Shown one piece after another: positions 18,267 to 46,671 of a stretch of DNA of 64,000 nt. The stretch is taken from NCBI RefSeq assembly GCF_000469135.2, contig NZ_CP048117.1, positions 549,001 to 613,000 of the forward strand. Reading direction: 5' to 3'. Every line of letters begins with the position of its first letter. The stretch's first letter is position 1. The notes under the pieces were generated by a model. That model saw nothing but the letters and a program-made list of their open reading frames with translations. It made no database searches and had not been told where the DNA came from. This DNA is from Bacillus sp. SB49. Lineage in GTDB: Bacteria; Bacillota; Bacilli; Bacillales; Halobacillaceae. Position numbers and translations under genes: made by a program.

Positions 18267-19730
18267 ATGAACGACGCCTCAAGAAATTACTGGTCCTTAT
18301 ATGCAGAGTTTTTATCTGCTTTCCAGTCGATCAGGTATAAAGGGTTTTCTATTCCTTACCTGTGCCATTTCAGAAGTTTGAACCATGAGAATACGTATAT
18401 ATGGGAGAATCTACCGAATGCAGCCTTCCGTAAACATTTATCCAAGGATGTGAAGGATAGAAAGGCTCTGCAGGCACTATTCGATCAATACAAGCAGTCC
18501 CATGTGAAAAAGAAAAAGAGTAAACTATTTCCAAGGATGAAGGCTCCAAAGGGTAAAATCGTCTTGTACAATGCGGCCAATCTCCTTCGCTTCCCAAAGG
18601 AGACGATGGATCGGCATTTCCGGCCTGACCAGACCGTACTGCTTCAGGATTTTCCTGCAAAGAAGAAGCCGAAAATCGTTAAAGGGATTCCGGTCCAAGG
18701 TGTTCCGTCCAACTATTTGAGTTCCTATCGTGTCCCTGTAGAAGCAAGCGTTCAGGTGCTGCAAAAGCAAGCGGATAAAATCATTCAAACATACTCAGGT
18801 CATCCTATGTTTAACCATGCATCGTTTCGAGTGAACTTCCACAAACAATTGTCAGGGATTGTCCAGAGAATTGAAGAGACGAATCGTTTCTTCCGGAAAA
18901 ACCCTGTATCCTGTATCGTTTTTGCATCCACCCATTATTATCAGAGCAGGACGATAGCTATGGTAGCGGCAGAAGCGGGTATCCCGACGGTCTGCATGCA
19001 GCATGGAATTATCGGGGATGAAATAGGGTACATGCCCCAAATTGCTGACGTGGAAGGGGTGTACGGGCATTTTGAATCGGAATGGTTTCAGAAGATCGGT
19101 GTAAAGAAGACGGCTGTTGAAATCATTGGGCATCCGCGGTTTGATAACCTCTTTCGCCGTTCGTCCCTGATGAAATCAGAGCTTGTCAATCAGCTGAAAA
19201 TAAATCCGGGTAAAAAAACGATTCTTGTCATTGTAAGAGAAGATAAACAAGTCGATAAGTGGAAGACGCTGGTCCAGAACTTAAGTAAAGAAGGAAACTA
19301 TAATATCATCATCAAAGACTTCCTCTACCGCGGCACCCCTCATCCGCTCACGAAACTTTCTCCTCATATCTATTCATCCGCAGCGATTCCATTATATGAT
19401 TTGATCCACCACAGCGATATCGTCTTAACCTATTTATCAACCGTAGGTCTGGAAGCGATGATCGCGGATAAACCAGTGTTCGTACTATCCACCCCATTTC
19501 CAACCTATACAGGTTATTTTGACAAACTGACTCCGTTAGTAGACCCGCGTCCGCTGAAAGTAGCCCGTATGGTAGGGAAATACCTCAGCGACGATCAGTG
19601 GAAGCAGCAGGTGAAAGAAACACGACAGTCGTTTCTGAATCATGCGTATCCAACGGCCAAGCCGTCCGGTACCAGACTGATGGATCTCCTGCGGCGTCTC
19701 TCGAAGCAAGGGGGGATTCCGTTTGAATGA
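18267..19730 (+). CDS. SpsB/CDP-glycerol transferase-like GT-B glycosyltransferase, paralogue A
   Basis: A 487-residue protein, start chosen at the ATG after AGAAAGGAG. It is one of four paralogues in the window. N-terminal module: RNYWSLYAEFLSAFQSIRYKG, then a CHFRSL segment and a Lys-rich linker about residues 76-94. The C-terminal half shows motifs of the capsule/teichoic-acid transferase fold: MQHGIIGDEIGYMP (about 247), IIGHPRFD (about 288) and LTYLSTVGLEAMIADKP (about 399). It is likely to transfer a sugar or phospho-polyol unit in a surface glycan at the cytoplasmic membrane face. It shares the CHFRSL/STHY/MQHGII subtype with the copy at 39614. It overlaps the next paralogue by 8 bases. 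Donor and acceptor are unknown. Confidence 0.75.
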   Translation: MNDASRNYWSLYAEFLSAFQSIRYKGFSIPYLCHFRSLNHENTYIWENLPNAAFRKHLSKDVKDRKALQALFDQYKQSHVKKKKSKLFPRMKAPKGKIVLYNAANLLRFPKETMDRHFRPDQTVLLQDFPAKKKPKIVKGIPVQGVPSNYLSSYRVPVEASVQVLQKQADKIIQTYSGHPMFNHASFRVNFHKQLSGIVQRIEETNRFFRKNPVSCIVFASTHYYQSRTIAMVAAEAGIPTVCMQHGIIGDEIGYMPQIADVEGVYGHFESEWFQKIGVKKTAVEIIGHPRFDNLFRRSSLMKSELVNQLKINPGKKTILVIVREDKQVDKWKTLVQNLSKEGNYNIIIKDFLYRGTPHPLTKLSPHIYSSAAIPLYDLIHHSDIVLTYLSTVGLEAMIADKPVFVLSTPFPTYTGYFDKLTPLVDPRPLKVARMVGKYLSDDQWKQQVKETRQSFLNHAYPTAKPSGTRLMDLLRRLSKQGGIPFE

Positions 19731-21123
19731 TTATGAAAGAGACTATTGGAGTTCGTATTTTGATTTTCTTGATAAATTTAAAGCATTGAAGTTTATGGGT
19801 ATTCCTGTGGCGCTTGTGCTTCCTTATTACGTCCTTATCATGGATCGCGGGTTGCATAAGTTGGGAACTCCGGCTGCAGGGGGAAGGTGGTCTGTCCCAT
19901 TAGCGAAGGAAGAAGAGCTGCAGTCACGCTTTGAACAAGTATTAAAGCCATATAAGAAAAGAAATACGAAAAGAAAAGGGAAAATCGTTTTTTATGAGGC
20001 GGTATTAAGAATCCCCCAATACCTCTTACGGTCTACCTTCTCTCCGGCCGAGACATTGATTCTCCGTCAGAAGCAGTCGGTCAATCCCTATACAGCTTAT
20101 AAGACGAAGTACTTCTACTCGCTTCAGCATGTGGATAAGGAAACGAAGAAATCGTTTATCAAAGAATGGAATAGTACGATGGATCAGTATGTCGACCATC
20201 CGATTTATGGAAATGTTCATTTTCGGAAGAAGGTCCGGATGCTGCTGCCTTCTGCGCTTATGCAAATCGCGGCAGCTGCCAAGTTCTTTGAAACGACAGA
20301 AGTTTCCTGTCTGATCGTCGGTACGACAAACAGCAGCGACAGCCGCAGTCTCGTACTTGCTGCCTCGCAGCGGGGCATTCCTACTATCTGTCTGCAGCAT
20401 GGTATTCCTATGCTGGAGTTCGGTTATCTTCCTAAAGTGGCCACGTTCCAGGCCGTTTATGGGGAAAGAGACAAGCGATGGTATGAGAGCCGGGGGGTTC
20501 CGTCCGTGACCCTGCGGATGATCGGCCACCCGCGCATGGATGATATTTATAAGAGGAAAGGAATGAGCAGAGAAGCCTTCTGTCATCGATTATCGTTGAA
20601 TAAAAAGAGGAAGACTATCCTTTTGGTGCTTCATCATGAAGAGATGGAGATGGTGGATTCCATTCTTTCTGAGCTGCAAAAGAATGCGGTGTACAACATA
20701 GTAGTCAAGCGACGAAACGGCAGACAACGCCAATCGGAGGCAACGCTTGCACTTGCCAAGAAATATAAAAAACTCACTTATGTCGATGATCTGCCTTTGC
20801 ATGACGTTCTCCGTCATGTGGATGCGGTGATCAGTTATGACTCTACGATCGTTCTTGAGGCGATGCTTGCTGGAAAGGTTGTCCTGCTTTGGTCGCTGAA
20901 CAGCCTGTCCCGCAGTTCTACCAATTATTACAATTCATTGGAATACTATCGATTTGAGAAGCCGGAAGAGCTCGTTGAAGCCCTCTGTCTTTTACTTGAG
21001 GATGGGTCGTATAAACAGGGGTATCATGCTGTAAGGGAAAAGACGATTGCATCCCTTTACCAGAACCGCAGTGGAACCTCTACAAAGGTTCTGGCAGAGC
21101 TTGTTCGATCTTTAATTCTGTAA
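19723..21123 (+). CDS. SpsB/CDP-glycerol transferase-like glycosyltransferase, paralogue B
   Basis: A 466-residue protein starting at TTG after AAGGGGGG, overlapping paralogue A by 8 bases. The start gives NDYERDYWSSYFDFLDKFKAL, aligning with the other copies. Motifs: VGTTNSSDSRSLVLAAS (about 202), LQHGIPMLEFGYLP (about 225), MIGHPRMD (about 266), and ISYDSTIVLEAMLAGK (about 370). It belongs to the same subtype as the copy at 25191 (PYYVLI, TTNSSD, LQHGIP). Likely a cytoplasmic GT-B enzyme of surface-glycan assembly; the activity is inferred from family features. Confidence 0.75.
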   Translation: MNDYERDYWSSYFDFLDKFKALKFMGIPVALVLPYYVLIMDRGLHKLGTPAAGGRWSVPLAKEEELQSRFEQVLKPYKKRNTKRKGKIVFYEAVLRIPQYLLRSTFSPAETLILRQKQSVNPYTAYKTKYFYSLQHVDKETKKSFIKEWNSTMDQYVDHPIYGNVHFRKKVRMLLPSALMQIAAAAKFFETTEVSCLIVGTTNSSDSRSLVLAASQRGIPTICLQHGIPMLEFGYLPKVATFQAVYGERDKRWYESRGVPSVTLRMIGHPRMDDIYKRKGMSREAFCHRLSLNKKRKTILLVLHHEEMEMVDSILSELQKNAVYNIVVKRRNGRQRQSEATLALAKKYKKLTYVDDLPLHDVLRHVDAVISYDSTIVLEAMLAGKVVLLWSLNSLSRSSTNYYNSLEYYRFEKPEELVEALCLLLEDGSYKQGYHAVREKTIASLYQNRSGTSTKVLAELVRSLIL

Positions 21124-21163
21124 CGAACGATAAAAAGATAGAGTATCTTAGTCATCTACCAAT

Positions 21164-21190
21164 ACGCTTTTCCATAACTTTCATAGAATA
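21164..21190 (+). promoter_or_regulatory. Candidate mother-cell (sigma-K/sigma-E type) promoter
   Basis: AC at 21164-21165, 16 bases, then CATAGAATA at 21182-21190. This fits the B. subtilis sigma-K pattern AC-16/17-CATANNNTA. It lies 35 bases upstream of the methyltransferase ATG. Confidence 0.45.
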
Positions 21191-21225
21191 ACGTATGCTT
21201 GAAAATAGAAGGGGGGATAAAGAGA

Positions 21226-21816
21226 ATGGAAGAAGAGAAAAAAACGATGGAAGAGCTTCATGACCACTGGAAGAGCAGCAGTACACCAGATTTGTATGCT
21301 CCGAGAGTAGAGAGAAGTGAGTTCCTGACCAAATATATCCGCAAATGCATTGTCCGAAATGGACAAATTCTGGAGGTCGGCTGCAACGTCGGTCGAAACT
21401 TGAACTATTTAAGAGAGCAGGGCTACCAGAACCTGAGTGGAATTGAGATCAGCGAGGAAGCGGTAATGGCGATGAAGGAGACGTTTCCGGAATTAGCCGA
21501 AGCGGCGCACATCATGAATGCACCCGTGGAACAAATCATCAAACGCCTGCCGTCCAATTCCTATGATCTCGTGTTTTCCATGGCCGTGCTCCTTCATATA
21601 CACCCGGACAGCGACTGGGTTTTCGAAGAGATGGCAAGGATATCCCGGGATTACATCATCACGGTTGAGGCAGAACAAGCATCAGGTTGGCACATTTTCC
21701 CTCGTAATTACAAAGCTATCTTTGAAGATCTCGGTTTTAAACAAGTGACGGAAAGCAATGCAAAAGCTGCCGGATTGAAGGCGTATACGCTTCGGGTCTT
21801 TAAAAAATTGAAATAA
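21226..21816 (+). CDS. Class I SAM-dependent methyltransferase
   Basis: A 196-residue protein, start chosen at the ATG after GAAGGGGGG rather than the upstream TTG. Motif I is ILEVGCNVGRN (about 50-60), the motif II acid is in LSGIEISEEA, and the post-motif SYDLVFSMAVLLHIHPD marks a Rossmann methyltransferase. The substrate is unknown. It follows two surface-glycan glycosyltransferases by about 100 bases, so glycan methylation is a reasonable guess but unproven. Confidence 0.82.
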   Translation: MEEEKKTMEELHDHWKSSSTPDLYAPRVERSEFLTKYIRKCIVRNGQILEVGCNVGRNLNYLREQGYQNLSGIEISEEAVMAMKETFPELAEAAHIMNAPVEQIIKRLPSNSYDLVFSMAVLLHIHPDSDWVFEEMARISRDYIITVEAEQASGWHIFPRNYKAIFEDLGFKQVTESNAKAAGLKAYTLRVFKKLK

Positions 21817-21916
21817 CAGCAGAAAGCGACTCTTGTTGGGATATTCCCAGGAAGAGTTTTTCTGATTGAAGGAAGGGAATAAAAGGAACATTCTGCTTAA
21901 GTCTGGAGAGGATATC

Positions 21917-22201: not shown

Positions 22202-22202
22202 C

Positions 22203-22246
22203 AAAAAAACAGGTAAGGTCGGGACCTGTGCCTGACCTTACCTGTT
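22203..22246 (-). terminator. Intrinsic terminator of the GNAT gene
   Basis: AACAGGTAAGGTC and GACCTTACCTGTT form a 13-bp stem. On the minus strand it is followed by a run of seven T, so it suits the minus-strand acetyltransferase best. Confidence 0.82.
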
Positions 22247-22247
22247 A

Positions 22248-25093: not shown

Positions 25094-25120
25094 ACAGAAT
25101 CAGCATCCCGGCATAAGATA
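25094..25120 (+). promoter_or_regulatory. Candidate mother-cell (sigma-K type) promoter of paralogue C
   Basis: AC at 25094-25095, 16 bases, CATAAGATA at 25112-25120. This is the same layout (ATAC-16-CATANNATA) as upstream of the methyltransferase gene at 21226. It lies about 70 bases before the glycosyltransferase start. Confidence 0.5.
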
Positions 25121-25190: not shown

Positions 25191-26588
25191 ATGAATCAAT
25201 TCGAACGAAGGTATTGGTCATCCTATTGTGATTTCATTAATGACTTTAAAGCATTGAATTACCTTGGGATTTCCCTGCCTCTCGTCATGCCATATTATGT
25301 CCTTATTCATGAAAATGCCATCCATAAATTAAAAGGCGGAGGAGCGGAGAAAATACTTCGCACAAAAATCGTCAAAGAAAAAAGCATTCAGGCTCATTTT
25401 GAAAAACATCTGGCCCCTTACCGGAAGAAAGTAGTGAAGAGGAAAGGGAGGGTCGTCTTCTATGACAATGTCCTTCGCATCCCTTCTTCGTTGATCGCTG
25501 AACAATTCAAGCCTGGTAAAGCTCTCCTGCTCATGCACCGGCCGTCCCAGGTAAAATCATCTATTCCGTCTATTGCATTAAGCAAATATGAAACGATTCC
25601 TAAGAAGATGATAGATAATTTCAAAAAGAAAGCAAATCGTATTCTTCTCTCCAAACGATCACATCTTATTTACGGGAATAAACATTTCAAGAAACGATTG
25701 CTGAGACAGATTCCGGTCGTCATGAAGCAGATCTTCGCTGCCAATAAGTTCTTCGCGAGCTACCCGGCTTCCTGTCTCGTGCTTGGTACGACGAACAGCA
25801 GTGACACGAGGATACTGGCATTGACAGCTGCGAGTAAAGGGATCCCCTCCATTTGTCTTCAGCACGGCATTCCACTGCTTGAATTCGGATACCTCCCGCG
25901 TGCCGCTACCTATCTCGGTGTGTACGGGACGAAAGATGTAGCCTGGTACACCAGTAAAGGTGTCCCTCCGGCAGTCATCAAAGTGGTCGGCCATCCTAGG
26001 TTCGACGAAATGGTGAAGAGAAAACCGATGTCTCCCAAAGTCTTTCAGGCGAAGTTCAAACTTGTACCGACTAAGAAGACCATTCTGCTGGTTCTGCATC
26101 ATCAGGAGACGGAAATTCCACAAATCATCATTGATAAGCTCTTGAAAACAGGGAAATACAACATTCTGATCAAGCCGAGGAATGGCAAACAGAGTAGAAC
26201 GTCCCAAACGCTTGCCCTCCAGCAAAAATATAAAACGGTCAAGTTCGCAAATGGTGTGCACTTATATGATCTGCTGCAAAATGTGGATGCGGTCGTCAGT
26301 TACGAATCGACGATCGTGATGGAAGCACTGCTTGCTGGTAAACCAGCATTCATCTGGAAGTTGAAAGCATTAGCGTCGAGCACTACGAATTACTACAGCG
26401 ACCTGAGCGAATACATTTTTCAGGATCCGAATCTCTTGATTGGGAAGATGATGGCCGTTCTTGATGGAAAGGTCGGTCCGGAGGCTTGGAATAAGAAGAA
26501 GGATGCTTTTATCCAGAAGCATTATCCTGTCGCACCACCGCTGTCGATTACGAAACTGAAAGCTTTGATCACCCAAATCACACTATGA
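25191..26588 (+). CDS. SpsB/CDP-glycerol transferase-like glycosyltransferase, paralogue C
   Basis: A 465-residue protein of the paralogue family. The ATG gives NQFERRYWSSYCDFINDFKAL, matching the other copies. A TTG at 25182 is closer to the AAAGGAGG site and may be the true start, adding LTT. Motifs: LGTTNSSDTRILALTAAS (about 201), LQHGIPLLEFGYLP (about 226), VVGHPRFDEM (about 266), and VSYESTIVMEALLAGKP (about 371). It is closest to the copy at 19723. It stands alone between xpt and a lipoprotein gene. Activity inferred as surface-glycan transferase. Confidence 0.75.
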   Translation: MNQFERRYWSSYCDFINDFKALNYLGISLPLVMPYYVLIHENAIHKLKGGGAEKILRTKIVKEKSIQAHFEKHLAPYRKKVVKRKGRVVFYDNVLRIPSSLIAEQFKPGKALLLMHRPSQVKSSIPSIALSKYETIPKKMIDNFKKKANRILLSKRSHLIYGNKHFKKRLLRQIPVVMKQIFAANKFFASYPASCLVLGTTNSSDTRILALTAASKGIPSICLQHGIPLLEFGYLPRAATYLGVYGTKDVAWYTSKGVPPAVIKVVGHPRFDEMVKRKPMSPKVFQAKFKLVPTKKTILLVLHHQETEIPQIIIDKLLKTGKYNILIKPRNGKQSRTSQTLALQQKYKTVKFANGVHLYDLLQNVDAVVSYESTIVMEALLAGKPAFIWKLKALASSTTNYYSDLSEYIFQDPNLLIGKMMAVLDGKVGPEAWNKKKDAFIQKHYPVAPPLSITKLKALITQITL

Positions 26589-37084: not shown

Positions 37085-37122
37085 GATATCCCTGATGCAT
37101 CCCGCATCAGGGATATTTTTAT
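37085..37122 (+). terminator. Intrinsic terminator of the dioxygenase gene
   Basis: ATATCCCTGATGC and GCATCAGGGATAT pair around ATCCC, followed by TTTTATT. The end of the stem also supplies the ATA of the promoter candidate at 37113-37139. Confidence 0.9.
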
Positions 37123-37139
37123 TCCCAATCTCATACGGT
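37113..37139 (+). promoter_or_regulatory. Candidate sigma-E type promoter of the surface-carbohydrate gene
   Basis: ATA (37113-37115), 16 bases, CATACGGT (37132-37139). This matches the B. subtilis sigma-E pattern ATA-16-CATANNNT. It is about 30 bases upstream of the GTG start. Confidence 0.45.
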
Positions 37140-37168: not shown

Positions 37169-38407
37169 GTGGTACGCACACATTGGTTGTATCTGCCTGT
37201 AGAAATGAAAGCCCGGGAACTGCACGCCAAGCTTCTATTAGGCTATCATGCCTTGAAGGAAGGGTACTCCGTGCTGATCGGTGAACATAGAAAAGTGGAA
37301 GAAGCGTCCATGCAGCTTCCGCCGGGCGTTTTTCTTGCAAAAGGATGTACTCCGGGTTACCGGAAGAAAGTGTTGACTTCTGCAAAGGCCAATGGTCACG
37401 GTGTTATGGAACTGGATGAAGAAGGTTTGATTTTCTCTGATGCTTCCAGGTATATAAGGCAGCGGATGAGTGCCGGGCAGTTGAAAAACCTTGATTATAT
37501 CTGCTGTTGGGGTCCGTATCAAAAACATACCATTGAACGGGCTTATCCGAATCTTTCTGTTCCCTGCACCATCACGGGCAATCCCCGCTTCGATCTTCTT
37601 AGTCCGGGATATCGGGGTATTTATCAGGAAGAGGCTGATTTGCTGAAGAAGACACACGGAAACTATCTATTAATAAACACTAGATTCCCCTTATATAACG
37701 GAAATAAAGGAATAAAAGAAGGAGATCTCTCGGCGGAGACTGCCTATATGAAGGACTTATTTCATGCCTTTGTTTCCTTGGTCAGGCAGATGAGCAAAGA
37801 ATGCAGCGACCGAACGGTTATTGTCCGACCTCACCCTGGAGAGAACAGCACGACATATGAGCGGCTTTTCAACCATCTGCCCAACGTGCGAGTCATCAGT
37901 GATGGTAATGTGATTCATTGGCTGCTCGGGGCGGAGGCTGTTATTCATAATGGATGTACGACGGGAATAGAGGCTTTCCTGCTCGACAAATTGGTGCTGG
38001 CATATGTTCCTTTTTCTTCCCCATTCGATGTTGACTTCCCGAATGATATCAGTACGCGTACAGCAACGATCAAAGAGCTGCAGAAGTGTCTGGATGAGAA
38101 ACCACCTCCTTCGAAAGAAGCAGAACGAATCTTTTCCCGGTATTACGGGCTGACGAAAGGGGATGTATCCTGGCCGTATGTGCTCGATATCATAAAGCGT
38201 ATATCTCCTCCCAAGGCTGCAGTGCCTAATATACGCCGTCTTCGCTTCGTGCCGGATAACCGAGAGAAAATTCGGCATGTTTTTCCTTCATTGACGAAGC
38301 GTGAGCTGGATGCGTTTCTTTACAAAATCAGTTTTCAGGAAGGTGATCCGATTCCTGTAAAGACACAGATGCTTGCCGATCGCCTCTTTCTTCTGTCACC
38401 ATCCTGA
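37169..38407 (+). CDS. Surface carbohydrate biosynthesis protein, GT-B-like
   Basis: A 412-residue protein starting at GTG after GGGGAGGGAAGG; the ATG two bases earlier is out of frame and soon stopped. It begins HWLYLPVEMKARELHAKLLL and shows ICCWGPYQ, ITGNPRFDLL, VRPHPGENS and VIHNGCTTGIEAFLL. This set is typical of the surface carbohydrate biosynthesis family related to CDP-glycerol and capsule transferases. The C-terminal 60 residues are basic. It lies just before the pseudaminic acid operon, separated by a terminator, and is probably part of the same glycan system. Exact activity unknown. Confidence 0.75.
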   Translation: MVRTHWLYLPVEMKARELHAKLLLGYHALKEGYSVLIGEHRKVEEASMQLPPGVFLAKGCTPGYRKKVLTSAKANGHGVMELDEEGLIFSDASRYIRQRMSAGQLKNLDYICCWGPYQKHTIERAYPNLSVPCTITGNPRFDLLSPGYRGIYQEEADLLKKTHGNYLLINTRFPLYNGNKGIKEGDLSAETAYMKDLFHAFVSLVRQMSKECSDRTVIVRPHPGENSTTYERLFNHLPNVRVISDGNVIHWLLGAEAVIHNGCTTGIEAFLLDKLVLAYVPFSSPFDVDFPNDISTRTATIKELQKCLDEKPPPSKEAERIFSRYYGLTKGDVSWPYVLDIIKRISPPKAAVPNIRRLRFVPDNREKIRHVFPSLTKRELDAFLYKISFQEGDPIPVKTQMLADRLFLLSPS

Positions 38408-38476: not shown

Positions 38477-38505
38477 TTCACCGAGTCCTTCCTTTGGAAT
38501 ATATA
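38477..38505 (+). promoter_or_regulatory. Promoter candidate of the pseudaminic acid operon
   Basis: TTCACC (38477-38482), 17 bases, TATATA (38500-38505), in an AT-rich block about 80 bases before the PseB start. No CATANNNT element was seen here. Confidence 0.4.
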
Positions 38506-38586
38506 TAGTAGTCAAGAGATATAAAAGTATGCCTTATTTCCCGAATGATTCACTAGTTTGATTTGATGGAAGGAAGAAGGGATGGA

Positions 38587-39591
38587 ATGTTTTTTAAAGG
38601 AAAGAAGATTTTAATCATTGGAGGTACCGGAACAATTGGTTCCAGTATCGTGCGGCAGTTGCTGCAGGAGTCTCCTGCTGTCATCCGGGTATTCAGCCGT
38701 GATGAACATAAACAGCATGAGCTGCATAATGAACTGGGTCCAAGGCAGAATCTCCGGTTTCTTATCGGGGATGTAAGAAATTATGACCGAGTTCATACCG
38801 CTATGCATGATGTCGATTATGTGTTTCACCTGGCAGCGATGAAGCATGTTCCTGCCTGTGAATACAATCCATATGAAGCGGTGCTTACGAATGTGGAAGG
38901 GACTCATAATGTCATTAAGGCAGCACTGGCAAAGGATGTAGAGAAAGTCGTATTTACAAGTACAGATAAGGCGATTTCCCCGACGAATACGTATGGGGCG
39001 ACCAAGCTGACCGCAGAACGTCTGATCACATCGGCGGAATACAGCAAAGGGAGCAGCCGTACGGTTTTTGCCAGTGTACGCTTCGGGAATGTCATGGGTT
39101 CCAGAGGATCCGTCATTCCGCTGTTTAAGAAACAAGTAGTCGATAAGAAGAAAATTACGGTGACGGATCGGCGGATGACCCGGTTTATGATGACGCTCGA
39201 TCAAGCGACAAATTTGACGATACAGGCGTTGAAGGAAGCGAAGGGCGGCGAAGTGTTTGTGCTCAAGATGCCGATCATTGCCCTGGAAGATCTCTACACG
39301 CTCGTTATTAAGGAAATGTGTCGGAAGTATCAATGGAAGACTACAGACATTCAAATTGAGGAAATCGGACTTCGTCCGGGCGAGAAAATGTATGAAGAGC
39401 TGATGACAGAGGAAGAGTCGGTGACGGCATGGGAGCTCCCGGGGATGTATGTCATCCCGCACCCGATCAAGAAAGAACAAGCATATCGCAGCGCCAGGAA
39501 GGCGAAGCCGGGTACGTACAGCTCCTCCGGTCTTCCTCCCATTACCATAGAGGAATTATATCGCTTATTAAAAGAAGAGGGATTACTGTAA
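38587..39591 (+). CDS. pseB: UDP-GlcNAc 4,6-dehydratase, PseB/CapD-like
   Basis: A 334-residue short-chain dehydrogenase. The start is the ATG after GGAAGGAAGAAGGG; ATG/TTG codons 21-24 bases upstream lie within or before this RBS. The NADP site is IIGGTGTIGSS (about 9-19). The inverting-dehydratase triad is in STDKAISPTNTYGATK (about 124-139). RFGNVMGSRGSVIPLF completes the family pattern. It should convert UDP-GlcNAc to UDP-4-keto-6-deoxy-L-AltNAc, the first step to pseudaminic acid, alone or with the second SDR of the operon. First gene of an eight-gene operon. Confidence 0.88.
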   Translation: MFFKGKKILIIGGTGTIGSSIVRQLLQESPAVIRVFSRDEHKQHELHNELGPRQNLRFLIGDVRNYDRVHTAMHDVDYVFHLAAMKHVPACEYNPYEAVLTNVEGTHNVIKAALAKDVEKVVFTSTDKAISPTNTYGATKLTAERLITSAEYSKGSSRTVFASVRFGNVMGSRGSVIPLFKKQVVDKKKITVTDRRMTRFMMTLDQATNLTIQALKEAKGGEVFVLKMPIIALEDLYTLVIKEMCRKYQWKTTDIQIEEIGLRPGEKMYEELMTEEESVTAWELPGMYVIPHPIKKEQAYRSARKAKPGTYSSSGLPPITIEELYRLLKEEGLL

Positions 39592-39613: not shown

Positions 39614-41089
39614 ATGAACATATTTGAAAGCAATTATTGGTCTGCTTATCTAGATTTTTTGGAAGATTTTCAAAGTCTTCAATATAAAGGGTACACCATT
39701 GCCCATCTTTGTCACTTCCGGAGTCTCATCGGCAAGAATGCTAAAGTGCTGGCGGCTCTTGAGAAAGCAACATTCAGGAAAGTGCTGCGTAATAGAGTGA
39801 CAGACTCTACGCAGGTGCAGGCAGTTTTCAACCACTTTAAAGCGAGTCATCAAGTACCTGTGAATAAGAAACCGAATGGCAAGATCATCTTTCATGACGT
39901 GTACAACTTGATGAGAATTCCGAATGAAACGTACACGAAATATTTCCAAAAGCATCGAACGCTTATAGTAAAAGAGAAGGCAAGCAAATTAAAAGAAGAG
40001 AAGCTGAAACAGAAGAGCGCCATGAAAAAAGGTGCGCGGATGAAGAAGAAAGCACCTTCGAAGACGGTGAAGAGTGCTTCGCCACCGGTTCAATATTTCG
40101 ATGCGTACCAGAAGCATCCCCGGACATCTGCGATCAGTCAGGCGAAACTGCATGCGACGAAATTGCTGAAGAAATTTCCAAACCACCCAATATATCAAGA
40201 TGCCAATTTCAGAAAAGTACTTTGGATTCAAATCAGTAAAATCATTTTACGTGTGGAAGAAGCGACTCAGCTGTTCCGCTCTTTATCTGTATCCGCCATC
40301 GTCGTTCCTTCTACGCACTATCCGGAAAGCAGAACGTTCGTTATGGTCGCTGCCAAACATGGAGTGCCGACCATTTGTATGCAGCACGGCATCATTTCCG
40401 GTGAATTCGGATACCTTCCGAAAATTGCAGATGTGGATGCTGTTTACGGCAGATTCGAAGTGGATTGGTATATATCGAAAGGGGTGAAACCGAAGGGCGT
40501 TGCCATTATCGGTCATCCTCGCTTCGATTTGATTCATAAGCCGGCAAAAAGCTCCAAAGCGAAGCTGGTCCGTCAGCTGGGGCTGGATCCGAAGAAGAAG
40601 ACGGTACTTGTTATCGTACGCGGCGGTTCCCAGGTGAAAAGCTGGCGGAAGTTCCTCGATCGTCTGCACGGGAAGAGTAAAGTGAATATCGTCGTGAAGG
40701 ACTATCCGAGTTCCAAGTCCCAGCGTCTCGTCAAATCCAATCCCTATATATTCTCCGCGCAAGGTCTTCAACTTTATGACCTCCTTCATTTATCCGATGT
40801 TGTTGTGTCCTACTCCTCGACGGTCGGATTGGAAGCGATGCTTGCAAAGAAACCGGTATTCATTCTGAATGAACCATTTCCCGGCTATTCGGGATACTAT
40901 ACGATTCTTGGGAAATTAGTCCAAAGCAACCCGGTGCGGCTGGCGGATCTCGTCACGTCCTACTTTCATACGAACGATATGAAAGTATATGTTCGTAACA
41001 AAGAGAAAGCGTTTCTTGACCGTTCTTATAATCAAAAACACCCTGCCGGCAAGCGGCTGGCTGGTCTCATTCATCATATGACTAATTAA
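39614..41089 (+). CDS. SpsB/CDP-glycerol transferase-like glycosyltransferase, paralogue D
   Basis: A 491-residue member of the four-copy family, RBS AGAGGAGG. N-terminus NIFESNYWSAYLDFLEDFQSL, then CHFRSL. A strongly basic insert about residues 123-156 (runs such as KKGARMKKKAPSKTVK) is longer than in the other copies and may bind acidic polymer or membrane. Motifs: VVPSTHYPESRTFVMVAAKH (about 231), MQHGIISGEFGYLP (about 255), IIGHPRFDLI (about 296), and VSYSSTVGLEAMLAKKP (about 399). It sits between PseB and the second SDR. It is therefore the best candidate in the window for handling the nonulosonic acid donor; that is inference. Confidence 0.77.
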   Translation: MNIFESNYWSAYLDFLEDFQSLQYKGYTIAHLCHFRSLIGKNAKVLAALEKATFRKVLRNRVTDSTQVQAVFNHFKASHQVPVNKKPNGKIIFHDVYNLMRIPNETYTKYFQKHRTLIVKEKASKLKEEKLKQKSAMKKGARMKKKAPSKTVKSASPPVQYFDAYQKHPRTSAISQAKLHATKLLKKFPNHPIYQDANFRKVLWIQISKIILRVEEATQLFRSLSVSAIVVPSTHYPESRTFVMVAAKHGVPTICMQHGIISGEFGYLPKIADVDAVYGRFEVDWYISKGVKPKGVAIIGHPRFDLIHKPAKSSKAKLVRQLGLDPKKKTVLVIVRGGSQVKSWRKFLDRLHGKSKVNIVVKDYPSSKSQRLVKSNPYIFSAQGLQLYDLLHLSDVVVSYSSTVGLEAMLAKKPVFILNEPFPGYSGYYTILGKLVQSNPVRLADLVTSYFHTNDMKVYVRNKEKAFLDRSYNQKHPAGKRLAGLIHHMTN

Positions 41090-41161
41090 GATGCTTCTTT
41101 CTATGAATAAAGCCCTTTTCTTAGAAATATGTATGGACAATATAAGGGAGGGGTGTGCATT

Positions 41162-42106
41162 TTGAACATTCTTGTGACAGGCGGCGCCGGTTTCATCGGC
41201 AGATGGGTCGTCCGAAAACTGCTGGAAGACGGGCACCAAGTATGGGTGCTGGATGATTTATCAAATGGACGTATTGAGAATATGGAAGAATTATTGTCCC
41301 ATAAGAACTTTCGAGCGTTCATCCATGGCGATATCAAAGACGAAGCAACCGTGCAAGCCTTGTTTTATCCGGGGATCGACCTTTGTTATCATCTGGCTGC
41401 AAGCATCAATGTCCAGGATAGCATCGATGATCCGGTGACGACGTTCCATAACGATACTATCGGTACATTCTATCTGCTTGAAGAATGCCGTAAACGTAAC
41501 GTGAAAATGGTATTCATGAGTACCTGTATGGTTTATGACAGGGCTGTGGACGACAAAGGGATTGCTGAAAGCGATCCGATCAAGCCGGCATCCCCGTACG
41601 CAGGCGCTAAGATTGCAGCGGAAAATATGGTGTTGTCGTATTATTACGCTTACGATCTCCCTGTGACAGTCGTCCGGCCGTTCAACACGTATGGGCCTTT
41701 TCAGAAGACGGGAGGAGAAGGCGGCGTAGTGGCCATCTTCATTAAGAACAAACTCCATGGTCTGCCGCTGCAAATTTATGGAGATGGACGTCAGACACGC
41801 GATTTATTGTATGTAGAAGACTGTGCCGGTTTCGTCGTGGAGGCGGGGTACCAGAGTGAAGTGGACGGCGAAATTGTCAATGCCGGTTTAGGAAGGGACA
41901 TTTCCGTTAATGATCTGGCCGCATTGATCGTAGAAGATGAATCGCGTATTGAACATATCGAGCATATCCATCCACAAAGCGAGATTCCGAAACTTCTCTG
42001 TGATTACAGGAAGGCGAAGAGACTTCTGGATTGGGAGCCTGCCGTTACATTAGAGGAAGGCATCCGTCGTACGGAAGAGTGGATCAAGACGACTAAACTC
42101 ATTTAA
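41162..42106 (+). CDS. NAD-dependent epimerase/dehydratase (extended SDR)
   Basis: A 314-residue SDR. I choose TTG after AAGGGAGGGG because it gives MNILVTGGAGFIG; an in-frame GTG 9 bases upstream is possible. The catalytic set is Ser in MSTCMVYD (about 119-126) and SPYAGAKIAAE (about 143-153). It is not one of the six canonical Pse enzymes. I recall a Bacillus thuringiensis pathway variant that uses two SDRs for the step done by PseB alone in Gram-negatives; this gene could be that partner, or could modify another sugar of the same glycan. Confidence 0.8.
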   Translation: MNILVTGGAGFIGRWVVRKLLEDGHQVWVLDDLSNGRIENMEELLSHKNFRAFIHGDIKDEATVQALFYPGIDLCYHLAASINVQDSIDDPVTTFHNDTIGTFYLLEECRKRNVKMVFMSTCMVYDRAVDDKGIAESDPIKPASPYAGAKIAAENMVLSYYYAYDLPVTVVRPFNTYGPFQKTGGEGGVVAIFIKNKLHGLPLQIYGDGRQTRDLLYVEDCAGFVVEAGYQSEVDGEIVNAGLGRDISVNDLAALIVEDESRIEHIEHIHPQSEIPKLLCDYRKAKRLLDWEPAVTLEEGIRRTEEWIKTTKLI

Positions 42107-42120: not shown

Positions 42121-43323
42121 TTGGGAAAGTTAGCGATAGTAGGGGGGAAGCCTGTCCGTGATTCGATGCTTGCCTACGGCAGGCAGTTTATTGATGATGA
42201 CGATATCGACGCTGTCGTGAACGTCTTGAAAAGTGATTATTTAACGACTGGGCCGACCATCGAGCGCTTCGAAAAGGAACTCTCGGAATATGTCGGCTCT
42301 TCGTATGCCGTTACTTTCTCAAGCGGAACGGCTGCCCTGCACGCCGCATGCTTCGCTGCCGGTGTGACAGAGGGGGCGGAGGTGATCACGACGCCGATCA
42401 CTTTTGTCGCAAGTGCCAACTGTGTCCTTTACAGCGGTGGGACACCTGTATTTGCGGACGTCGATCCGATTCATTACAATATCGATCCGGTATCCGTGGA
42501 AAAGCTGGTGACGGAGAAAACGAAAGCCATCATACCTGTCGACTTTACGGGACAGCCGGCAGACTATAAAGAGCTTCGAAGAATCGCCGACGAGAACGAG
42601 CTGGTGATCATCGAGGATGGTGCCCATGCTCTCGGTGCGGAATACGAAGGGAAGAAAGTCGGTTCGTTCAGTGATATGACGATGTTCAGCTTCCATCCTG
42701 TCAAACATATTACGACGGGAGAAGGTGGTGTGATCACGACGGATAACCCGGTTTTCTATGAGAAATTGAAGTTGTTCCGGACCCATGGCATCACTCGTGA
42801 CACACATCAGCTCGAACAAAATCGGAAGTCCTGGGAATATGAAATGCAGTTCCTCGGCTATCACTACCGCATGACGGATATCCAGGCAGCTTTAGGAAGC
42901 AGTCAGCTGAATAAATTGGAACGCTTCCTTACTTTGCGAAGGGCTTATGCGGCGAAATATGACGAGGCTTTCCGCAACTTGGAAGGAGTCGAAATCCCAT
43001 GCCAGCTGAAAGATACGAAATCAAGCTGGCATTTATATGTTCTTCGTTTAAGTGGGAAGCTTGCTCCGTTGAGGACGGAAGTGTTCGAATCCCTGCGGGC
43101 GGAAAATATCGGAGTGAATGTCCACTACATGCCTGTCCATCTTCAACCTCATTACCAACGACTTGGATATGGGCCGAACCAGTGCCCTGTTGCGGAGGAA
43201 TTGTACGAACACATTCTCACACTGCCTCTATTTCCTGGAATGTCAGACGAGGACGTGAAGGATGTCATTACAGCCGTCCGAAAAGTCGCCGGTCACTTCA
43301 GCGGGAAAGCAGGGAAACCATGA
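42121..43323 (+). CDS. pseC: UDP-4-amino-4,6-dideoxy-L-AltNAc transaminase, PseC
   Basis: A 400-residue PLP aminotransferase of the DegT/DnrJ/EryC1 family. TTG start after AAAGGGGA. The PLP lysine is K195 in FHPVKHITTGEGG. ITTPITFVASANCVLYSGGT and NVHYMPVHLQPHY are typical of PseC. It transfers an amino group from glutamate to C4 of the keto sugar. B. subtilis SpsC belongs to the same family. It overlaps pseG by 4 bases (ATGA). Confidence 0.92.
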   Translation: MGKLAIVGGKPVRDSMLAYGRQFIDDDDIDAVVNVLKSDYLTTGPTIERFEKELSEYVGSSYAVTFSSGTAALHAACFAAGVTEGAEVITTPITFVASANCVLYSGGTPVFADVDPIHYNIDPVSVEKLVTEKTKAIIPVDFTGQPADYKELRRIADENELVIIEDGAHALGAEYEGKKVGSFSDMTMFSFHPVKHITTGEGGVITTDNPVFYEKLKLFRTHGITRDTHQLEQNRKSWEYEMQFLGYHYRMTDIQAALGSSQLNKLERFLTLRRAYAAKYDEAFRNLEGVEIPCQLKDTKSSWHLYVLRLSGKLAPLRTEVFESLRAENIGVNVHYMPVHLQPHYQRLGYGPNQCPVAEELYEHILTLPLFPGMSDEDVKDVITAVRKVAGHFSGKAGKP

Positions 43324-44366
43324 GAATCGGTTTCCGGGCTGATGCGTCCCGTTCCTTGGGGACCGGGCATGTGATGCGTTGTGCCACGCTCGCCGAACAG
43401 TTGAAGAAGCAGGGGGTGGATGTTTTTTTTATGTGCAGAAAACGTCCCGGGGACCTTGTGGATTGGCTGATGGAAGCCGGTATGGATGTTCATATGATCA
43501 CAGGTGCAGACCCGGTGTCCTGGGAGGAGGACGCGGCTAGATGCGTGCAGGTTTTGGATAATATAGGAACGGTGGATTGGCTCGTTGTCGATCATTATCT
43601 GCTGGATGCCCGGTGGGAGGAAGTCTTGTCTGCCCGTGTCGGCGGGGTGATGGTCATCGATGATTTGGCTGACAGGCCTCATAGGTGTGGTGTGCTGCTC
43701 GATCAGAATTTGCACAAGGCTGGGGAAGCGGGGTATGCCAATCTCCTTCCACAAGGCGCCACCTGCCTTTTCGGTCCTGCGTATGCCTTGCTTCGTGAAG
43801 AATTCTATCATTATGACAAGAAGCGTAAAGAACGCTTGGGACGTCTTGATCGAGTGCTTGTTTCCTTCGGTGGCAGTGATCCGAATAACGATACTTGGAA
43901 AGTTGTGCAGGCGTTAAAGCGGCTTGCGGATACACCGAAAGTCGATGTCGTGGTAGGAGGCGCTTATCCTTATAAACAGGAGCTCCGCAAATTCTGCCAA
44001 CAGGAGAAAATGTCCCTGCACGTCCAGACGAAACGGATGGCTCGGCTGATGCAGCAGGCAGATGTAGCTTTCGGTGCAGGTGGGAGTTCTGTGTGGGAGC
44101 GGTGTTATATGAAACTCCCGACTGTTGTCATCGAAGCTGCTGATAATCAGACGGGTGTACTATCGGCCCTTAAAGAGAGGGGAGCGGTTTTATACTTAGG
44201 GAGGAGTGAGCAGGTGACGACCGATCAAATCTATGAACAGCTTGCCCTGTTGAAGAACGATCCGTCCCTTCTCGTGAATCTGTCAAGAGCGGCGGGGGCT
44301 TTAATGGAGAAGCATCGACCGCATGCCGTTGCAGACTTTTTGACAGGAAGGTCTCCTGATGACTGA
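43320..44366 (+). CDS. pseG: UDP-2,4-diacetamido-2,4,6-trideoxy-L-altropyranose hydrolase, PseG
   Basis: A 348-residue GT-B-like nucleotide-sugar hydrolase. The start by overlap with pseC gives MRIGFRADASRSLGTGHVMR, with the catalytic-type H17. The UDP-binding side is VSFGGSDPNNDT (about 180-191) and FGAGGSSVWERCY (about 245-257). It removes UDP to release the free diacetamido sugar. Related to SpsG of B. subtilis. It overlaps the following acetyltransferase by 8 bases. Confidence 0.92.
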   Translation: MRIGFRADASRSLGTGHVMRCATLAEQLKKQGVDVFFMCRKRPGDLVDWLMEAGMDVHMITGADPVSWEEDAARCVQVLDNIGTVDWLVVDHYLLDARWEEVLSARVGGVMVIDDLADRPHRCGVLLDQNLHKAGEAGYANLLPQGATCLFGPAYALLREEFYHYDKKRKERLGRLDRVLVSFGGSDPNNDTWKVVQALKRLADTPKVDVVVGGAYPYKQELRKFCQQEKMSLHVQTKRMARLMQQADVAFGAGGSSVWERCYMKLPTVVIEAADNQTGVLSALKERGAVLYLGRSEQVTTDQIYEQLALLKNDPSLLVNLSRAAGALMEKHRPHAVADFLTGRSPDD

Positions 44367-44877
44367 GTACACGCTTAGAGATGTGGAAGAGAAGGACTGG
44401 AGGCAGATTTGGACGTGGCGGAACAGAGAGGAAATCCGCCGACATATGTATAACAATCAACCCATTGAGTGGGATAGTCATCTCGAATGGATGAAGAAAG
44501 AGCAGAAAAATACCCAGGCTCATGCGAAGATCTTCGTCTCCGGCAAACGTCCGCTTGGCTTTGTTCGATTTTCCGATATCGATCGTGTGCATAAGCGGTG
44601 TCTTTGGGGGTTCTATATCGGAGACCCGGCCGCGCCTAAAGGAGCAGGGACAGAGATGGGGAAGCTTGCCCTTGATTACATTTTTAAGCAGGAACCCGTC
44701 CAAAAAGTATGTGCAGAGGTTCTGTCTTCGAATACAGGCAGCGTTCGTTACCATGAGAAGCTTGGTTTCGTGCAGGAAGGAAGACTTTGCAGCCATTGGA
44801 ACAGAGGGGGAGTGTTTCTTGACGTGATACTTCTGGCACTATTCAAGGAAGATTGGGAGGGGAAGGAATGGAGATGA
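44359..44877 (+). CDS. pseH: Sugar N-acetyltransferase, PseH
   Basis: A 172-residue GNAT protein. The acetyl-CoA region is FYIGDPAAPKGAGTEMGKLAL (central GAGTEMG), and the family pattern VCAEVLSSNTGSVRYHEKLGF follows. It acetylates the C4 amino group of the UDP-sugar made by PseC, before hydrolysis by PseG. Overlaps pseG by 8 bases and PseI by 10, so it is tightly coupled. Confidence 0.88.
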   Translation: MTEYTLRDVEEKDWRQIWTWRNREEIRRHMYNNQPIEWDSHLEWMKKEQKNTQAHAKIFVSGKRPLGFVRFSDIDRVHKRCLWGFYIGDPAAPKGAGTEMGKLALDYIFKQEPVQKVCAEVLSSNTGSVRYHEKLGFVQEGRLCSHWNRGGVFLDVILLALFKEDWEGKEWR

Positions 44878-45917
44878 AAGTGGGCGATCGGTATATCGGT
44901 GAAGCCCATCGGCCGTTCATCATCGCAGAAATGTCCGGGAACCACAATCAATCGTTGACGCGTGCCCTTGAAATCGTTGATCGCGCGGCGGACAGCGGTG
45001 CTGATGCATTGAAAATCCAGACATACACGGCAGATACGATGACGCTGGATCATAAAGGGGCAGACTTTGAAATTAACCAGCAGGACAGTTTGTGGAAGGG
45101 CAAGCGCTTGTATGATCTTTATAAGGAAGCTTATACACCGTGGGAGTGGCATGAAAAGATATTCGAGCGCTGCAGAGAACGAGGTATCATTGGGTTCAGT
45201 ACCCCGTTCGACGCCTCATCGGTCGATTTCCTCGAATCGCTTCATGTCCCTATGTATAAGATTGCATCCTTTGAAAATACGGATCTGCCATTGATCGAGA
45301 AGGTCGCTGCCACAGGGAAACCGGTCATCATATCGACGGGGCTTGCGACAGTCGCCGAAATAGCAGAAATGACGGCTGCTGCGCGGGGAGCCGGCTGTCG
45401 GGATTTAGTGCTTCTGAAGTGCACCAGCAGCTACCCGGCAACTCCGGAGAATTCCAATATCCGAACCATACCTAATATGAAAGAAGTGTTCCGTTGTCAA
45501 GTCGGTCTATCGGACCACACCCTCGGTACAGGGGCGGCGGTTGCAAGTGTCGCTTTAGGTGCGTCCGTCATCGAAAAGCATTTCACCTTAAATCGTAAGG
45601 ACGGAGGCGTGGATTCTCAATTCTCCCTGGAACCGGAGGAGATGAAAGCACTCGTCACGGAAACGGAACGGGCATGGGAAGCGCTCGGATCTGTTCGTTA
45701 CGGACCGACAGACAGCGAAAAAGGGTCGGGCAAATACCGGCGCTCTCTCTATATTACAGAAGATATGAAAGCCGGTGATGTGTTGACAGAGTCGAATCTC
45801 CGGGCTATCCGCCCAGGATTCGGCATGCCGGTGAAATATATGGAAGTGCTGCTCGGGAAGAAAATCAATGCCGATCTGGTAAAAGGGACACCGATGTCCT
45901 GGAAGTGGATTGGATGA
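44868..45917 (+). CDS. pseI: Pseudaminic acid synthase, PseI (NeuB family)
   Basis: A 349-residue NeuB-type synthase. The ATG after GGGAGGGGAAGG is used; another ATG two codons later is possible. The TIM barrel covers about 10-270 (IIAEMSGNHNQS, KIQTYTADTMTL, GFSTPFDASSVDFL, LGASVIEKHFTL), and a C-terminal SAF domain about 285-345 (RRSLYITEDMKAGDVLTESN). It condenses phosphoenolpyruvate with the free 2,4-diacetamido sugar to make pseudaminic acid. EMSGNHNQ favours the Pse type over sialic or legionaminic synthases, though specificity needs assay. Confidence 0.92.
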   Translation: MEMKVGDRYIGEAHRPFIIAEMSGNHNQSLTRALEIVDRAADSGADALKIQTYTADTMTLDHKGADFEINQQDSLWKGKRLYDLYKEAYTPWEWHEKIFERCRERGIIGFSTPFDASSVDFLESLHVPMYKIASFENTDLPLIEKVAATGKPVIISTGLATVAEIAEMTAAARGAGCRDLVLLKCTSSYPATPENSNIRTIPNMKEVFRCQVGLSDHTLGTGAAVASVALGASVIEKHFTLNRKDGGVDSQFSLEPEEMKALVTETERAWEALGSVRYGPTDSEKGSGKYRRSLYITEDMKAGDVLTESNLRAIRPGFGMPVKYMEVLLGKKINADLVKGTPMSWKWIG

Positions 45918-45930
45918 AGGGAGGAGTCAC

Positions 45931-46671
45931 GTGAAAGTCGTCGCCATCGTGCAGGCGCGGATGGGATCGACTCGTCTGCCCGGTAAAGTATTAAAGCCGA
46001 TTCTGGGAAAACCAATGCTTGTCTATCAAATCGAGCGGATGCAGCGTTCGAAGCTGATCGATCAACTGGTCATCGCTACGACCGAGCATGTCAGGGATGA
46101 CCCGATCGTCGAGCTGTGCCGATCTGTAGGAGTGGCTTGTTACAGAGGGTCGGAGGATGATGTGCTGGAGAGATACTATGAAACGGCAGCGGCTTTCGAT
46201 GCAGACGCTGTCGTCAGGCTGACAGCGGACTGCCCGCTGATCGATCCCAACGTGATAGACGATGTCGTCGCTGCTTACGTCCGCCGCGCACCTGCGTTTC
46301 AGTATGGTTCGAACACGGAGGTGCGGACTTATCCGCGGGGGATGGATACAAGCGTGTTCTCTTTCCAAGCGCTGGAGGAAGCATACAAGGAAGCGGTGCA
46401 GCCGGCGGAACGGGAACATGTCACGCCGTTCATCATCCGCCATTCTGAACGGTACTCGAGTTTCCACGTGACATATAAGCGGAATGCCAGTTCTCATCGG
46501 TGGACGGTGGATACAAGCGAAGATTTCGAGCTTGTGAAAAGAATTATCGAACACCTTTACCCAAGCAACCCGGGGTTTTCAATGGAAGATGTCCTTAAAG
46601 TCATCGCTGATCACCCGGATTGGGAGGATATCAACCGTCATATCGAGCAGAAGGACCCAGGATCGTCCTGA
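45931..46671 (+). CDS. pseF: CMP-pseudaminic acid cytidylyltransferase, PseF/SpsF-like
   Basis: A 246-residue nucleotidyltransferase. GTG start after AAGGGAGGAG. The N-terminal VKVVAIVQARMGSTRLPGKV is the CTP-binding loop, and VRLTADCPLIDPNVID (about 91-106) carries the metal-binding Asp. It activates the nonulosonic acid with CTP to the CMP donor for glycosyltransferases. It resembles the SpsF subgroup rather than NeuA. Last gene of the operon, followed by a strong terminator. Confidence 0.9.
   Translation: MKVVAIVQARMGSTRLPGKVLKPILGKPMLVYQIERMQRSKLIDQLVIATTEHVRDDPIVELCRSVGVACYRGSEDDVLERYYETAAAFDADAVVRLTADCPLIDPNVIDDVVAAYVRRAPAFQYGSNTEVRTYPRGMDTSVFSFQALEEAYKEAVQPAEREHVTPFIIRHSERYSSFHVTYKRNASSHRWTVDTSEDFELVKRIIEHLYPSNPGFSMEDVLKVIADHPDWEDINRHIEQKDPGSS

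Follow-up and report, generated by a model that had tools for sequence, protein, structure and literature searches.

Which enzyme attaches pseudaminic acid, and to which surface, is the question raised by a 64-kb stretch of DNA from Bacillus sp. SB49 (positions 549001-613000 of a closed 3.77 Mb genome, hereafter the window), in which four paralogues resembling SpsB (S1-S4) occur along with an operon for nonulosonic acid synthesis. An earlier note on this DNA had read the paralogues as an expanded set of enzymes, possibly one per linkage, for a pseudaminic acid (Pse) glycan of the spore or cell surface. The comparisons described here point to a mother-cell sporulation system which would make CMP-Pse and build a pseudaminate-bearing spore-surface glycan, Pse being transferred most likely by a different protein, the TIGR04396 family member encoded at 37169; confidence in this reading as a whole is evenly balanced between acceptance and doubt. 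The features that carry the argument are listed below, class II being the SpsB class without an HP motif, and Pen and Pal the enzymes assigned to the first step of the Pse pathway.

37169..38407, + strand: TIGR04396 surface-polysaccharide glycosyltransferase, candidate CMP-pseudaminate transferase (330.8 bits against a cut-off of 125)
18267..19730, + strand: S1, SpsB-like class II paralogue (a longer frame, from 18201, scores 25.1 bits for PF04464, cut-off 22.1)
19723..21123, + strand: S2, SpsB-like class II paralogue (TTG start, overlapping S1)
25191..26588, + strand: S3, SpsB-like class II paralogue
39614..41089, + strand: S4, SpsB-like class II paralogue, between Pen and Pal

Candidate transferases and the two SpsB classes

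The TIGR04396 protein, and not the paralogues, is most likely the best candidate for the Pse transferase, as judged from its motifs. Both motifs of bacterial CMP-sialyltransferases (D/E-D/E-G and HP) are present in the TIGR04396 protein, and neither is present in S1-S4. The LD-E-E-G, RPHP and CT positions are conserved in 22 aligned sequences, that of the window included, with D83, E85, G86 and RPHP invariant and E84 kept in at least 90% of them. The relevant passages on the meningococcal polysialyltransferase report D/E-D/E-G and HP to be required for activity and donor binding (PMC2169525), and those on Tannerella report that losing proteins with these motifs abolishes Pse or legionaminic acid (Leg) (PMC6388019). 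Kinship of the TIGR04396 protein with the BFO_1060 family (E = 1e-24) is stronger than that of SpsB and stays under the 200-bit BFO_1060 cut-off. A PDB sequence search with the TIGR04396 protein gave nothing convincing, and no literature linking BFO_1060 with pseudaminic acid was found.

Within the genus, TIGR04396 exceeds its cut-off in 5 of the 13 genomes of the sample, which is numbered from G000 upward (G000, G008-G011), and these are the five in which Pen, Pal and PseC are found at the NeuB locus; another NeuB cluster is found in G001 and G003, and no strong NeuB match in the other six. G008 carries the Pse operon and two TIGR04396 genes, and no SpsB.

The existence of the four paralogues is borne out, all six pairs giving full-length BLASTP alignments (E 2e-143 to 8e-58; identity 27-43%) and falling into two pairs, S1/S4 (40% identity) and S2/S3 (43%); no further SpsB-like copy was found in the genome. 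The motifs attributed to them earlier, YWSxY, QHGI and GHPR(F/M)D, are present in 4/4, while S-STxxxEA did not hold as written: the literal pattern S.ST...EA matches 0/4, the real form being Y-x-S-T-x3-E-A. Pfam gives weak CDP-glycerol transferase, capsule or epimerase-like signals only, and NCBIfam a weak relation to BFO_1060, with E-values between 2e-8 and 1e-12 and scores well under the cut-off. Their profile matches a diacylglycerol glucosyltransferase (E = 3e-4), which bears on a possible GT-B fold. GHPR(F/M)D was also considered as a CMP-binding HP motif and set aside: the HP of class I and TIGR04396 lies ~60-85 residues later, and the site is of the form G-x-P-R-x-D, read as GNPRFD in TIGR04396, so it is not the sialyltransferase HP.

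An alignment of 120 SpsB sequences, in which QHG is present in nearly all and the ST-E site in all, separates two classes. Class I has K-P-H-P in its C-domain, in most cases followed by W-E, and most of its members carry T-E-D in the N-domain; class II has K-D-F-P, K-N-Y-P, K-P-R-N-G or similar in place of K-P-H-P. All four window paralogues belong to class II, without the HP and acidic motifs. The absence of HP in class II holds by definition, class I being defined by the presence of K-x-HP; the acidic pair is present in 22/26 class I rows and 0/94 class II rows, and class II rows keep QHG (93/94) and the ST-E motif (94/94). These row labels, like those of the tree, use the narrower pattern K-[P/A]-H-P, which labels locus L115 and one row of L113 HP-less though these, with KLHP and KIHP, both read K-x-HP. 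In the SpsB tree, a quick search with midpoint rooting and 7/120 rows omitted (L088_2349, L113_11120, one each of L080, L084 and L086, two of L085), the HP-less rows form one clade of 86 (SH-aLRT 100), apart from the distant outliers L113 and L115. Since K-x-HP also occurs in these two distant rows and in KpsC, HP is probably the older state, and its loss in class II is favoured.

The two classes also differ in their gene neighbours, as read in 72 SpsB-like loci from a single scan of named genomes, whose flanks were compared by BLAST with the window proteins. By the K-x-HP pattern, these comprise 23 class I, 44 class II, 3 mixed (L055, L088, L113) and 2 unclassed loci (L110 and L112, with no SpsB frame of 380 aa). 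Strictly counted, SpsA is found in 16 class I loci; partial matches in L091, where it is split over two frames, and in L106, where only a short piece aligns, raise this to 18. TIGR04396 is found in none of the class I loci; class II loci show SpsA in none and TIGR04396 in 30. Most class I loci have both spsA and nonulosonate genes close by, and most class II loci the nonulosonate genes without SpsA. A search of the window's own genome at E <= 1e-20 gave no SpsA. The probable relation of the paralogues to the SpsB family is drawn from the SpsA synteny of class I together with an hhalign comparison of class I with the mainly class II alignment A2 (prob 100; A2 holds one class I row, L036). In PDB, the class I profile matches KpsC, a CMP-Kdo (3-deoxy-D-manno-oct-2-ulosonate) transferase, at E = 3e-5, KPHP being aligned on KVHP over ~80 residues.

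Transfer of Pse by the four class II SpsB proteins themselves, one per linkage, with some other role for TIGR04396, is unlikely, yet it is the alternative with most to commend it. S4 lies between Pen and Pal, Pse genes accompany most SpsB loci (56/72), and SpsB is weakly akin both to BFO_1060, at the values given above, and to TIGR04396 (hhalign E = 1e-8). TIGR04396 is, moreover, absent from 14/44 class II loci; 6 of the 14 carry Pen and show no TIGR04396 in the available stretch, which in some of them runs off a contig end (L051, L054, L058, L067, L070, L080), the Oceanobacillus loci L051 and L054 lacking it despite a complete pathway. As TIGR04396 is within reach in only 30/44 class II loci, the case for it as the Pse transferase is weakened. 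Against transfer by SpsB stand the loss of HP and of the acidic pair in class II, the Pse operon of G008 without any SpsB, and, in the spsB passages of the B. subtilis study, a deletion that leaves spore Leg unreduced (PMC7439481). For these reasons the suggestion of one SpsB enzyme per linkage, as far as it concerned Pse, is not upheld, and 37169 is the better candidate: the motifs expected of a CMP-Pse transferase are kept in TIGR04396 and lost in class II SpsB.

Several observations weigh against this use of the motifs. B. subtilis SpsB holds HP and DEG motifs by its authors' account, and is nevertheless dispensable for Leg according to the same passages (PMC7439481), so that motifs alone do not settle the donor; SpsB of the HP type, too, may have some activity other than nonulosonate transfer, and motif loss is no proof of a donor change. 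The best PDB match of class I is diacylglycerol glucosyltransferase (E = 8e-8), ahead of KpsC. The classes are largely two taxonomic groups, so the associations are of lineages, and the locus counts are not independent because the class split follows taxonomy. Although class II SpsB proteins are basic (isoelectric point, pI, 9.6-10.1; 5/7 pathway enzymes have pI 5.1-6.5), basic charge is also found in class I (median pI 8.9) and TIGR04396 (9.0).

We regard as new the division of SpsB into two classes, the expansion of the HP-less clade and the proposal of TIGR04396 as transferase; the remainder is for the most part of an ordinary kind, akin to the sps and Pen/Pal systems already known. Among literature titles on SpsB, on pseudaminic acid and spores, and on legionaminic acid at the spore surface (since 2020), none dealing with the class split was found, and none joined Halobacillus with pseudaminic acid. 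Some class II SpsB carry long variable lysine-rich linkers. Two further proteins without Pfam or NCBIfam match keep to one class each, one of 191 aa (L082:4085-4660) with relatives in 22/72 loci, all class II, and one of 150 aa (L101:7503-7955) with relatives in 8 loci of class I, every one from Paenibacillus, and with SigE-like sites upstream of 5/7 of its genes.

The probable pseudaminate pathway and its occurrence

The remaining genes of the system are as follows.

38563..39591, + strand: Pen, UDP-GlcNAc dehydratase (6bwc, 460 bits; likely start ATG 38587, alignment from residue 9)
41129..42106, + strand: Pal, second enzyme of the Pen/Pal route (best PDB match 6bwl, titled Pal, 486 bits)
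42121..43323, + strand: PseC aminotransferase (TTG start; TIGR03588, 492 bits against a cut-off of 423.5)
43320..44366, + strand: PseG-like nucleotide-sugar hydrolase (by its place in the operon; homologues of at least 30% identity in 49/72 loci)
44359..44877, + strand: PseH-like GNAT acetyltransferase (Pfam Acetyltransf_3, 3e-20)
44853..45917, + strand: PseI pseudaminic acid synthase, NeuB family with SAF domain (TIGR03586, 498 bits against a cut-off of 340)
45910..46671, + strand: PseF/SpsF-like CMP-nonulosonate cytidylyltransferase (Pfam CTP_transf_3, 8e-36, and context; under the NCBIfam cut-offs shown)
21199..21816, + strand: S-adenosylmethionine (SAM) methyltransferase (Pfam Methyltransf_11; exact start unsure)

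As judged by the best PDB matches, the first pathway step is laid down in two genes, Pen and Pal, as in the B. thuringiensis-type route, and their homologues adjoin PseC, G, H, I and F. The structure 6bwc, titled CapD in its entry, is one which we take to be B. thuringiensis Pen. A single-enzyme PseB reading of 38563, as had been proposed earlier, was rejected, the frame reaching 323 bits against an NCBIfam cut-off of 407.75, and Pen with Pal fits better. The rest of the operon fares well: S4 does lie inside it, with PseC and PseI over their cut-offs, and a pseudaminic acid pathway is supported; the PseF assignment is carried by CTP_transf_3 and context and falls short of the NCBIfam cut-offs. 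The start of PseG, ATG 43320, overlaps with the stop of PseC; an over-long frame from 42999 gave no Pfam match, and pseG is annotated in related plasmid operons. Missing from the earlier account were the TIGR04396 gene (37169), the methyltransferase (21199) and the GalE-like Pal (41129); TIGR04396, a fifth related transferase, and the methyltransferase are both part of the system. No tRNA gene was found in the window.

SpsB-like genes go with the nonulosonate pathway. In a strict recount by identity limits, Pen is found in 56 of the 72 loci, Pal in 52 (at least 60% identity), PseC in 55, PseI in 53, PseG in 49, PseH in 48, PseF in 42, TIGR04396 in 31 and the methyltransferase in 15 (at least 40% identity). 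At least two of Pen, PseC, PseI and PseG occur in 56/72 loci, and in 62/72 by any BLAST match, the looser count being raised by distant paralogues; the claim of a nonulosonate-linked SpsB-type surface system is thereby sustained. The 16 loci outside the strict count are short contigs (L060, L080), lone SpsB genes (L045, L056, L057, L073, L079, L085) and L048, L065, L087, L093, L095, L098, L113 and L115. Among 120 genomes of the order, SpsB occurs at E < 1e-20 in 12; a PseI/NeuB match at E < 1e-40 is present in 12/12 of these as compared to 49/120 overall, presuming that both searches drew the same 120 genomes, as the handles suggest, and PseI exceeds its curated cut-off in 8/12 as compared to 29/120.

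The system is dispersed in the window, S1-S2-methyltransferase and S3 being satellites ~11-19 kb upstream of the operon; that description does not extend to H. karajensis, H. litoralis and H. dabanensis, in which the four SpsB genes, TIGR04396 and the Pse genes form a single cluster. The clusters of H. karajensis and H. litoralis, which also figure in the genus sample as G009 and G011, occupy the same site as the window operon, and similar satellites with S1-S3 (and the methyltransferase) are seen in Halobacillus sp. A1 (L057), A5 (L085) and Marseille-P3879 (L056). In G010, the methyltransferase stands between an eroded SpsB, a fragment of 178 aa (L034:9596-10132) lying between Pen and the methyltransferase, and SpsB_4.

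Legionaminic acid as the product, as in B. subtilis, is quite unlikely. It is suggested by the sps pathway, which yields Leg, and by the restoration of Leg in ΔspsM by Pen-Pal, as stated in the pathway passages of PMC7439481; NCBIfam PseI names, too, are no proof of stereochemistry. A Pal homologue of at least 60% identity is, however, present in 52/72 loci, as compared to B. subtilis, where these passages name SpsM alone as the first step, and PseC and PseI of the window lie above their Pse cut-offs.

Further genes are found at related loci. Two proteins encoded after PseF (L031:4889-6938, L033:4016-6078) share an N-terminal C-x-DWQGF stretch without Pfam match; the second carries a methyltransferase domain, and homologues (X1/X2) recur in other SpsB loci. 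A sulfotransferase-like gene occurs in 10/72 loci (e.g. L046, L047, L049, L061, L063; one member scanned), and the glycan may be sulfated in some species. In relatives, L037, L038, L042 and L043 hold a distinct, distant NeuB cluster, 32-40% identical to PseI of the window.

Spore linkage and promoters

A good link of the system with the spore is suggested by SpsA neighbours, BMQ_0737 coat genes and SigK-like promoters. The protein at L090:9207, directly upstream of a class I SpsB, matches B. subtilis SpsA at E = 9e-95, and in 16/23 class I loci (L090 included) a protein matches it with 40% identity or higher along 180 residues; 15/16 of these SpsA proteins stand directly before SpsB. The L104 member of the cluster is not SpsA. 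A BMQ_0737 spore coat cluster is present in 26/72 loci, and the two members scanned with hidden Markov models reached 215 and 144 bits against a cut-off of 71. Passages on B. megaterium place BMQ_0737 among the outermost spore proteins (PMC4656864). The window's genome has five matches to the family, of which three exceed the cut-off; all five lie outside the window. A plasmid of Priestia megaterium carries spore coat and CgeA genes and, after them, an SpsB-like gene with pseC, pseG, pseH and pseI, the candidate Pen and Pal of the same run being annotated polysaccharide biosynthesis protein and GDP-mannose 4,6-dehydratase, and an SpsB-like gene on a Peribacillus plasmid is annotated spore coat protein. 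In Gracilibacillus suaedae, L079:19350-19844, presumably CotY/CotZ/ExsY-like, lies ~8 kb from a lone SpsB_4-like gene.

The promoter-like sites of the window are the following.

18199..18225, + strand: SigK-like promoter before S1
21164..21190, + strand: SigK-like promoter before the methyltransferase (8 bp from its TTG start)
25094..25120, + strand: SigK-like promoter before S3
37111..37139, + strand: SigE-like promoter before TIGR04396 (2 mismatches to the consensus, weak; overlaps a terminator-like stem)
38480..38507, + strand: conserved promoter-like element AC-N15-GAATATAWATA (once in the window, 55 bp ahead of the Pen frame)

The SigK pattern (AC-N15-17-CATA-N2-3-TA) and the SigE pattern are both general consensus forms, and the window sites were first spotted with a looser form. 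SigK-like sites occur in 3/5 upstream regions of the window system, a number reached in 0/2000 shuffles; over the whole 64 kb, the pattern matches 4 times on the plus strand and 7 times on the minus strand. Across the loci, such sites occur in 13/20 upstream regions of the SpsA cluster (0.6 in shuffled sequence; one of the 13 belongs to the non-SpsA gene of L104), 28/35 BMQ_0737 genes (0.7) and 22/353 other genes (9.3). In the SigE scan, TIGR04396 gave 6/27 as compared to 3.5 shuffled, and Pen 16/45 as compared to 6.1.

The promoter evidence is not uniform, and several counts tell against sporulation control. TIGR04396 and Pen of the window have no strict SigK-like site, the promoter-like sites of its Pse operon being the weak SigE-like site and the AC-N15-GAATATAWATA element. 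SigK-like sites are few before Pen (6/45), TIGR04396 (1/27), S1-type (2/16), S3-type (1/7), S4-type (0/7) and methyltransferase genes (3/8), sets for class II-type genes that include a few class I loci, and L056, L057 and L085 lack the strict site upstream of S1. Other genes also exceed their shuffles (22 as compared to 9.3), as does a coiled-coil neighbour (8/27).

The AC-N15-GAATATAWATA element is found upstream of Pen, S1 or S4 in 11/185 system regions, and in 0/417 other, 0/60 coat-type and 0/20 SpsA-cluster regions. Its core was defined from six regions (window Pen, L045, L056, L057, L073, L085), from which five of the 11 matches come; the matches independent of the definition are L053, L054, L058, L062, L065 and L070, L053 and L062 being close to the window's genus. 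A wider regulon for GAATATAWATA was not seen: there are 13 matches in 21 genomes as compared to ~20 for a reversed control, relatives staying at or under the control level, and 2 matches in the window's own genome.

A glycan of vegetative cells or flagellin instead of spores is improbable. Other nonulosonate clusters in relatives (L040, L042) adjoin genes which by eye resemble fliD, fliS and flagellin, and the missing SigK sites and the position of the genome's own BMQ_0737 genes outside the window are in keeping with such a location. Inspection by eye, with no flagellar family searched, showed no flagellar gene next to the operon of the window or to the corresponding operons of Halobacillus, and the spore coat genes, SpsA and CgeA of relatives, together with the SigK-like sites, oppose it. 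Thus, of the "spore or cell surface" proposed earlier, the spore is favoured by SpsA synteny, BMQ_0737 genes and SigK-like promoters, and the cell surface is disfavoured.

Proposed mechanism and known systems

In the spore-glycan system favoured here, Pen and Pal would convert UDP-GlcNAc to UDP-4-keto-6-deoxy-L-AltNAc, and PseC, PseH, PseG, PseI and the PseF/SpsF-like enzyme would carry it to CMP-Pse. From CMP-Pse, the TIGR04396 protein would most likely transfer Pse, because it has the acidic D/E-D/E-G and C-domain HP motifs of bacterial CMP-sialyltransferases. S1-S4 are basic and would probably be membrane- or polyanion-associated, GT-B-like enzymes; as their clade probably lost both motifs once and then multiplied, they would probably contribute further sugars to the glycan, taken from another donor. 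Capping or modification of the glycan would fall to the methyltransferase (21199). We infer the stereochemistry, donors, linkages, spore location, membrane association and the identity of the Pse-transferring gene from sequence comparison. That class II SpsB are inactive or structural assembly partners and not glycosyltransferases, as the two lost motifs, the pI of 9.6-10.1 and the lysine-rich linkers of some might suggest, is very improbable, since QHG and ST-E are retained in nearly all rows, unlike decay, of which the eroded copy of G010 gives the appearance.

A broader proposal is put forward tentatively, with doubt outweighing belief: halophilic Bacillaceae may have rebuilt their spore-glycan machinery, the place of SpsA and HP-type SpsB being taken by a TIGR04396 nonulosonate transferase together with HP-less SpsB enzymes that radiated, the latter a possible new glycosyltransferase subfamily with a new donor and a QHG catalytic centre, partly under the AC-N15-GAATATAWATA promoter. 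With other enzymes apparently standing in, and in greater number, for those that commonly attach the sugars, the enzyme of the step which TIGR04396 matches is now testable. The class swap leads to a prediction of which SpsB proteins would bind CMP-sugars and which would not, and the same-genus G008, with Pse operon and TIGR04396 and without SpsB, offers a natural experiment.

Among known systems, the KpsC beta-Kdo transferases resemble class I SpsB at the HP site, over the ~80 residues noted above; class II differs from KpsC in having no HP site, and there is no evidence for Kdo. With the Tannerella GtfS/BFO_1060 type, SpsB shares a weak and TIGR04396 a stronger profile kinship, and TIGR04396 shares the motifs as well; unlike that type, all stay under the 200-bit cut-off, and class II SpsB lacks the motifs. 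GtfS, which we take to be BFO_1060, is given as Tanf_01245 in review passages. The B. thuringiensis Pen/Pal pathway to CMP-Pse is matched by Pen, Pal (6bwc, 6bwl) and then PseC/G/H/I/F-like enzymes. It differs from the window operon, which is tied to SpsB, with SpsB_4 between Pen and Pal, and which has coat genes beside it in relatives.

The B. subtilis sps system (spsA-L, spsM; Leg, spore crust) is unlike the window system in having SpsM alone, as compared to Pen and Pal, TIGR04396 and four HP-less SpsB in the window, where SpsB genes lie at three places and SpsA is missing from the genome at the threshold stated above. The passages of PMC7439481 on transfer report that neither SpsA nor SpsB is required for Leg transfer to B. 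subtilis spores and leave the transferase unidentified; for this step TIGR04396 offers a concrete candidate in halophilic relatives. The two systems are alike in their SpsB-type and SpsC-G-type enzymes, in probable mother-cell sporulation control and in a probable spore-surface location, and in B. subtilis, as stated in the same study's passages on surface properties, sps glycans determine spore-surface charge and adhesion (PMC7439481).

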